NCBI GenBank assembly: GCA_947165675.1
Contig: CAMVBJ010000017.1
Span: 1-64,000 of the forward strand
Origin: an uncultured Prevotellaceae bacterium
GTDB lineage: Bacteria; Bacteroidota; Bacteroidia; Bacteroidales; Muribaculaceae
DNA: 64,000 nucleotides
Direction: 5' to 3'
Made by a program: the position numbers and the translations under genes. Shown here in pieces: positions 4,530 through 5,790 of the stretch (its first letter is position 1; the number at the start of each line of letters is the position of its first letter). The notes beneath the pieces were generated by a model, which was not told the origin of the DNA, made no database searches, and worked only from the letters and a program-made list of their open reading frames with translations.

Positions 4530-4579
4530 TTCCTCAAAATCTTTGCTTGTTTTGAGCGCAAAATTAAGCCATTTTGGGT

Positions 4580-4652
4580 AAATCTCAAAATGTTTTTAGG
4601 TAAATCATGTAGAAATCTCACAATTTATTTCGTCAAATCCTGTAGAAATCTC
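4580..4652 (+). repeat. Three AAATCTC iterons with exact 33 bp period upstream of DUF4143 ATPase
   Basis: AAATCTC at 4580, 4613, 4646; second and third units share AAATCmTGTAGAAATCTCrCAAT. Confidence 0.8.
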
Positions 4653-4766
4653 GCAATGTTTGACATTGTATTACACCAGACCTTCAAATTAGGACTCCGG
4701 TTCGCACCTCCCAAAACCTTTAAAACCTCCCGAAGCCTAATTGACAGCGTTTTTCTGCAAGCCGAT

Positions 4767-4918: not shown

Positions 4919-5326
4919 TTATACACAGATGGATTTCAATTCGTCGGCGAGTGTGGCGATTTCTTTCAGGATGAGGGTTTCACGTTCTTTTGAGGGCTTT
5001 TTCATGCCGTTAATGTATTGAGCCATGAGGCTTTGGCTGATGCCAAGTCTGCGACCGATGGCCGCGGCATTCAATTCGGGGTGAGACAAGAACACCTTAG
5101 AAACCCCAACAGGTTCCGGGTCATCATATTCAAAACTCTCGAACGACACATCCTCATCCAATTTTTCCCAATGGATGCCCTCGTCATCCATCTCGTAGTC
5201 ATTACGCTCCTCGTCGGTTGCATTCCTCAACCGACGATAATAGAGCAGCGACTGCCACAACGTGCGGCCATCATCAGTCTCTCCATAGATGCGGTCATCC
5301 GCAAACCAAATCCTGTTAATCTTCAT
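4919..5326 (-). CDS. DUF2442 protein with C-terminal helix-turn-helix; antitoxin-like
   Basis: MKINRIWFADDRIYGETDDGRTLWQSLLYYRRLRNATDEER..; HTH-like AAAIGRRLGISQSLMAQYINGMKKPS; start overlaps the stop of the upstream DUF4160 frame. Confidence 0.75.
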   Translation of the reverse strand: MKINRIWFADDRIYGETDDGRTLWQSLLYYRRLRNATDEERNDYEMDDEGIHWEKLDEDVSFESFEYDDPEPVGVSKVFLSHPELNAAAIGRRLGISQSLMAQYINGMKKPSKERETLILKEIATLADELKSICV

Positions 5327-5574
5327 CGTTAACGCTTTTACCAAAATACTCATTCCACTTCTCAATAGCCAATTCCTTGTTCTCTTCAAGGACCATTTCG
5401 GCGGCTTTGATATCCTTAATCTTAATACCTTTGTTCTCAGCGAGAACAATGTCCTCTGGCAGAATATCAAACTTCGCCTTCCCCATCGGCATTCTTCACA
5501 TGCACATGAATCGGTTCATGTTCCCTCGAATAGAAGAAAAACCGCATTCCAAACATTCTAAAAATCTCAGGCAT
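5316..5574 (-). pseudogene. DUF4160 gene interrupted by a +1 frameshift
   Basis: Frame 1: MPEIFRMFGMRFFFYSREHEPIHVHVKNADGEGEV*; next frame: AKFDILPEDIVLAENKGIKIKDIKAAEMVLEENKELAIEKWNEYFGKSVNDED*; one extra G near 5476-5480 joins the two. Confidence 0.75.
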
Positions 5575-5601
5575 AATCTAATATTTGTGATTTCACTACT
5601 G

Positions 5602-5631
5602 CAAAGATAGGTAATTTTTTCATTACCTCAA
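5602..5631 (-). promoter_or_regulatory. Promoter with palindromic operator for DUF4160/DUF2442 pair
   Basis: -7 TATCTTTG (5602-5609), -33 TTG (5629-5631), 19 nt spacer containing GGTAAT-n6-ATTACC (5610-5627). Confidence 0.7.
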
Positions 5632-5705
5632 AGCATTTTGTAAATAATATCATGTAATTGCATATAAAAATGTCAGATGACTATAAAATCACCTGACATT
5701 AAACG

Positions 5706-5790
5706 TGGTGCGCCTGATAGGACTCGAACCTACACAACCGGAGTTACCAGATCCTAAGTCTGGCGCGTCTACCAATTTCGCCACAGGCGC
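5706..5790 (-). tRNA. tRNA-Leu (anticodon TAG)
   Basis: gcgcctgtggcgaaattggtagacgcgccagacttaggatctgg...ggttcgagtcctatcaggcgcacca; class II variable arm, encoded CCA. Confidence 0.93.

Follow-up and report, generated by a model that had tools for sequence, protein, structure and literature searches.

Structure of the locus

The window analysed here is a stretch of 64,000 nucleotides that forms part of a 3.1-Mb Bacteroidales-type assembly. It contains an operon on the minus strand, whose features are listed below together with the evidence on which each is based.

5706-5790, minus strand: tRNA-Leu gene, directly upstream of the operon (ARAGORN)
5669-5700, minus strand: intrinsic-terminator-like hairpin between the tRNA gene and the operon promoter (14-pair stem, T run)
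5629-5632, minus strand: TTTG, the -33 element of a Bacteroidetes-type promoter (sequence; position kept in most relatives)
5610-5627, minus strand: predicted operator GGTAAT-GAAAAA-ATTACC (GGTAATGAAAAAATTACC), filling the spacer between the -33 and -7 elements (sequence and comparative tests)
5602-5609, minus strand: TATCTTTG, the -7 element (sequence; TAnnTTTG conserved in relatives)
5316-5574, minus strand: DUF4160 (DhiT-type toxin) gene, frameshifted, in pieces 5574-5467 and 5492-5316 (open reading frames, Pfam, relatives)
4919-5326, minus strand: gene for DUF2442 with a C-terminal helix-turn-helix (HTH), a DhiA-type antitoxin and predicted repressor of 135 aa (Pfam, fold)
4925-5107, minus strand: HTH domain, antitoxin residues 74-134 (AlphaFold model, pLDDT 93; Foldseek)
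5009-5035, minus strand: predicted recognition helix (QSLMAQYIN, residues 98-106), which varies in step with the operator (model, Mantel and sliding-window tests)

The consensus of Bacteroidetes-type promoters is TTTG-N19-TAnnTTTG. In the window, the whole promoter from -33 to -7, including the palindrome, spans 5602-5632, and a single A at 5628 separates TTTG from the palindrome. The original prediction had placed a palindrome in the promoter spacer, and reading the sequence confirms GGTAAT-N6-ATTACC between the two elements. A tRNA 3' end also lies upstream of the operon in two relatives (L010 and L011). Elsewhere in the window, at 4560-4700, repeated TGAGATTT-like elements occur upstream of an ATPase-like gene at 4529-3180.

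The predicted overlap of the DUF4160 and DUF2442 genes on the minus strand is likewise confirmed by the sequence and by Pfam: the DUF4160 gene starts with the ATG at 5574, and the start codon of the DUF2442-HTH gene lies inside its end (GATGAAGATTAA). The original prediction treated DUF4160 in its text as an ordinary gene, although the tests proposed there do refer to a "repaired" one. In fact, the gene is frameshifted near 5483-5470, since the Pfam match to DUF4160 is split between two frames (profile positions 1-29 and 26-65). The same frameshift is present in an independent assembly (L008), L009 carries a different one, and the copies in L010 and L011 are intact.

The DUF2442 domain occupies residues 5-66 (Pfam). 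The extra C-terminal HTH that had been proposed is below threshold in the Pfam HMM matches but clear by fold: the AlphaFold2 model (22 homologs; pLDDT 93) has helices at residues 74-81, 87-93, 98-106 and 113-134, and the best solved match in Foldseek is 2AUW (NE0471), followed by 3K8R, HigA2 and the lambda and P22 repressors. Because the E-values are weak (best 4e-3), the fold call is based on the consistency of this match list rather than on one score. A sequence search of the HTH against the PDB returned nothing significant, so that its relatives emerged solely from the fold search, and PADLOC and NCBIfam gave no meaningful assignment. The predicted structure has the DNA-binding fold expected of an HTH antitoxin that represses its own operon. 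For the DUF4160 model, the fold search found no usable solved-structure match and no known catalytic fold.

Relation to known systems

DUF4160 (DhiT) proved to inhibit growth in experiments with Dickeya dadantii and E. coli, an effect that is relieved by co-expressed DUF2442 (DhiA); DhiA reduces the activity of its own promoter roughly two-fold, and the DhiT-DhiA complex represses it further (PMC8198452). A Thermus plasmid without the DUF2442 gene could not be introduced, whereas one without DUF4160 could (PMC12724237). The earlier statement that neither domain has an established role is thus outdated, with DUF4160 as the DhiT toxin and DUF2442 as the DhiA antitoxin (PMC8198452, PMC12724237).

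The window locus has the DhiTA gene order, with DUF4160 first, DUF2442 second and the two overlapping. DhiTA of Dickeya dadantii 3937 is alike in its two domains, its leading toxin gene, its overlapping genes and its autoregulated operon. However, the text of PMC8198452 names no operator or DNA-binding motif, whereas the window locus has a C-terminal HTH on the antitoxin, a conserved operator in the promoter spacer and a broken toxin gene. The PEM module of the Thermus plasmids pIOK1 and pIOK9 (PMC12724237) also has DUF4160 first and DUF2442 second, but its DUF2442 protein, with 92 aa, is too short for an added HTH, and its setting is plasmid maintenance. NE0471 of Nitrosomonas europaea (PDB 2AUW), titled a putative DNA-binding protein, is the best fold match to the DUF2442-HTH model, but it is unpublished according to PMC9410881, and its partner and operator are not described in the literature searched. 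The HTH repressor Aca10, which has NE0471 among its structural matches, binds as a dimer to an inverted repeat overlapping -35 and -10 in the promoter of its own operon (PMC9410881); it differs in that it controls anti-CRISPR genes and has neither a DUF2442 domain nor a toxin.

We also considered membership of the HigBA group. HigBA-type systems have the toxin gene first and an antitoxin with a lambda-type HTH. HigA2 (PDB 5JAA, 5J9I) is among the fold matches of DUF2442-HTH. However, the HigBA toxin is a RelE-fold RNase and its antitoxin has no DUF2442 domain; the partner here is DUF4160, whose model matches no solved toxin, and this assignment was rejected.

We consider it highly likely that the locus is a type II toxin-antitoxin operon of the DhiTA family, in which an HTH antitoxin represses itself through the spacer palindrome and the toxin is frameshifted in this copy. 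The autoregulated toxin-antitoxin layout of the original prediction is supported both by the comparison of relatives and by what has been published on DhiTA-type pairs (PMC8198452, PMC12724237). The window copy is a toxin-broken derivative of DhiTA and not a working pair; since its toxin gene is broken, the present unit is predicted to be an antitoxin and autorepressor.

Loss of the toxin and retention of the antitoxin

An intact toxin gene, which the window copy of the module lacks, is present in 34 of the 60 HTH-bearing relatives. In all 30 loci retrieved by searching with DUF4160, the DUF2442 gene follows directly, and 28 of them are counted as having an intact DUF4160. Thus, an intact DUF4160 without DUF2442 was found in 0/28 loci, against 26/60 HTH-antitoxin loci without an intact DUF4160 (p=7e-6), although the DUF4160 search, which took the best 30 matches to a profile built from paired genes, is somewhat biased toward paired loci. 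When only survey loci are used, 9/24 HTH-antitoxin loci are without an intact DUF4160 (p=4e-4). This one-sided retention, in which the antitoxin occurs without the toxin but no intact toxin was seen without the antitoxin, is as expected of DhiTA. The antitoxin tree requires at least about 15 changes of toxin state, with many of its forks weakly supported.

A frameshifted toxin gene may also mean that the locus as a whole is decaying and no longer functions. We regard this as rather unlikely, for toxin-deleted lineages usually keep the promoter, the operator and the antitoxin, and the palindrome occupies its promoter slot (defined below) in 19 of the 26 loci whose toxin is not intact. In addition, comparison of near relatives gives a dN/dS of about 0.02-0.03 for the antitoxin, and these relatives all have the same operator, although much of this selection may predate the toxin loss. 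The comparison of the window locus with L008 was not relied on as a measure of purifying selection after the loss, because DUF4160 and the promoter look identical while DUF2442 differs, which may reflect recombination. A more speculative proposal, unlikely in our judgement, is that toxin-less DUF2442-HTH genes whose operators are intact serve as anti-addiction or immunity factors, which would neutralise and repress incoming phage or plasmid DhiTA modules of the same operator class; modules residing in one genome would then be insulated from each other by the divergence of their operators.

Alternatively, the operon may be genuine without being a toxin-antitoxin system in Bacteroidales, in which case DUF2442-HTH would simply repress a small gene whose product is not toxic. 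The evidence for toxicity does come from outside Bacteroidales, and the DUF4160 model, as described above, resembles no solved structure or known catalytic fold. However, these two domains, with their genes in this order, have been shown by experiment to form a toxin-antitoxin system in Dickeya and E. coli and behave similarly in Thermus, and the loss is one-sided, DUF4160 being often lost but never seen intact without DUF2442. We consider a non-toxic operon improbable; under the preferred DhiTA reading, DUF4160 is presumably toxic in this lineage, by analogy with these systems.

In L091, where DUF4160 is deleted, CRISPR-like repeats (GTTGTTTTCGATGCAAATTTACACAAATTTTGAAAGCAATTCACAAC) end just before the DUF2442-HTH gene, within about 420 bases upstream.

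Conservation of the palindrome

A palindrome at a single locus is weak evidence, because a free scan of the 90 bp upstream finds an equally good one in about half of the shuffled sequences. Since such a scan is not discriminating, we used a fixed-slot test instead: the slot is the 18 nt to the left of TAnnTTTG, and the palindrome is scored by the number of dyad pairs out of 6. As background, 1/651 other TAnnTTTG sites has all 6/6 pairs and 38/651 (5.8%) have at least 4/6. Among HTH-bearing relatives, 37/41 distinct promoters have at least 4/6 pairs in the slot, against 0/18 HTH-less DUF2442 loci (Fisher p about 1e-11). The set of 41 promoters leaves out L017, L034 and L100, for which the promoter call is unreliable, and loci without a box are not counted. 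The HTH-less group leaves out L044 and L045, which have a truncated frame but possess the palindrome, because they match the HTH lineage and have lost the HTH frame. The slot palindrome is absent in 4/41 distinct HTH-bearing promoters (L032, L047, L092 and L098), and in L083 the main palindrome lies further upstream than the slot.

Homologous loci lacking any palindrome had been named in advance as an outcome that would refute the proposed operator. Among HTH-bearing homologs this objection fails, and the lack of the palindrome in HTH-less homologs is as expected if the HTH is its reader. Upstream of its DUF2442 gene, L034 has a strong palindrome, TGAGGTCAAAATATTTGACCTCA, and a helix reading SKNTMTQ; its close relative L032 is without this palindrome.

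The two arms of the palindrome covary. The alignment contains 24 double-change cells, compared with 7.5 +/- 2.0 in shuffled alignments (0 of 500) and 0-10 when the partners are slid. The alignment was restricted to loci reaching 4/6 pairs or more, a choice that biases it toward pairing, though not toward double changes specifically. In the 3.1-Mb genome, the exact palindrome occurs once. Versions with one mismatch are no commoner genome-wide than a reversed control pattern, so that we do not claim a wider regulon.

Matching of the operator to the recognition helix

The sequence of the operator varies with that of the recognition helix. Helices of the form SQSL(M/F/I)AQ mostly have GGTAAT operators, whereas QQSL(F/L/I)AA helices have GGATAT or GGTTAT and the KQSLLAA helix has GGTTAT. 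With N(A/P)(T/A)LLRN helices, GGTATC or GGAATC is paired with GGTATT or GGAATT. The NKSLLAR helix has a GGTATA operator, HKSLLAK has GGTCT and NTTLLQQ has AGTATT. L026 and L144 depart from this simple rule, and a rule based on a single residue (Q103 for GGTAAT) is too simple, being contradicted by L144.

Across 35 non-redundant loci, partial Mantel testing shows the operator to be correlated with helix residues 95-108 when the DUF2442 domain is controlled for (r=0.55, p=0.0002), but not with the DUF2442 domain when the helix is controlled for (r=-0.02). The sliding-window signal peaks at residues 97-108, and the strongest single positions are 103, 98, 89 and 97. Residues 31-54 give a weaker operator signal (partial r 0.2-0.3), for which we have no explanation. 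For example, despite a domain identity of 42%, the window locus and L094 have nearly identical helices and share the GGTAAT operator, whereas the window locus and L025 have 82% domain identity and differ in both helix and operator.

A second pair in the same genome, located on another contig and intact, has a different helix, NATLLRN, and its promoter slot holds another site, GGTATTAAAAATAATTCC. Five genomes (G000, G201, G208, G266 and G333) each have two HTH-bearing modules, always with two different operator classes, although the number of genomes is small for judging insulation. Taken together, these sequence comparisons show that the HTH and the palindrome evolve together, and residues 97, 98, 103 and possibly 89 seem to set the DNA specificity. 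The locus thus has, as judged by comparison, a dyad operator in its own promoter matched to its own recognition helix, as an autorepressor would.

The palindrome might instead be recognised by a host regulator unconnected with the operon, or have arisen by chance in an AT-rich spacer, and the frequency of comparable palindromes in shuffled 90-bp regions is in line with this. Its absence from all 18 HTH-less loci, its single exact copy in the genome, the different site of the co-resident second pair and the fact that the operator class follows the antitoxin's own helix make this very improbable. A role of the inverted repeat at the RNA level, as an attenuating or terminating hairpin, is hardly credible: the arms do covary, but the repeat lies upstream of the -7 box, hence outside the transcript of this promoter and conserved as DNA rather than RNA, its arms are AT-rich with no T tail, and it covaries with a DNA-binding helix.

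Phage, viral and plasmid variants

Bacteroides phage BT-TP2 (PQ571279.1; L142:3386-4204) encodes DUF4160, DUF2442 and the HTH in a separate gene each, one after the other.

gp36: DUF4160
gp37: DUF2442, 77 aa
gp38: HTH, 75 aa

The gp38 HTH has 55% identity to residues 68-134 of the window protein, and two tandem GGTAAT-type operators lie upstream of the split module. Fused DUF2442-HTH forms are found in a second phage record and in IMG/VR contigs. Four distinct phage or viral promoters (L142, L143, L148 and L151) contain two operator copies spaced exactly 30 bp apart, whereas in 49 chromosomal loci no further copy was found at a distance of 26-41 bp. When seven phage operators were predicted from the nearest bacterial helix, three were right, two ambiguous and two wrong; the specificity code is therefore real in outline but not solved.

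The Salinibacter ruber plasmid pSR61 (L154:850-1665) encodes a DUF2442 protein with a different, XRE-like HTH, and has the palindrome TATACGGAACCGTATA upstream of DUF4160, which suggests an independent gain of HTH and operator.

Proposed mechanism and implications

In the proposed mechanism, the first gene would encode the toxin, DUF4160, and the second an antitoxin with the DUF2442 domain. The lambda-repressor-like HTH of the antitoxin would bind as a dimer to 5610-5627, between -33 and -7, and the bound dimer would block RNA polymerase, so that the module represses itself. The toxin is known as a co-repressor in relatives; with the toxin gene broken, only autorepression at the level of the antitoxin would be left here. 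The HTH very probably reads the palindrome and represses its own operon, because the palindrome is conserved in HTH-bearing relatives, its dyad covaries, it tracks the recognition helix, and the split phage HTH has a matching operator. The original prediction that DUF2442-HTH acts through the palindrome is thus supported by comparative evidence, from which we infer binding. Most DUF2442 antitoxins have no HTH, so that autorepression in the family need not use one.

The DUF4160/DUF2442 family itself is already known. The novelty lies in the HTH-bearing branch, whose operator sits in the promoter spacer and coevolves with the helix, and in the phage antitoxin that is split in two; in the literature within reach of our search, we found neither this operator, nor its match to the HTH, nor the split antitoxin. 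A poorly known toxin-antitoxin family is now tied to a concrete operator and a few helix residues, its toxin is lost repeatedly while the antitoxin and operator stay, and a phage carries the antitoxin as two separate genes. Since only a few helix residues seem to set the specificity, the code would be testable by exchanging those residues.
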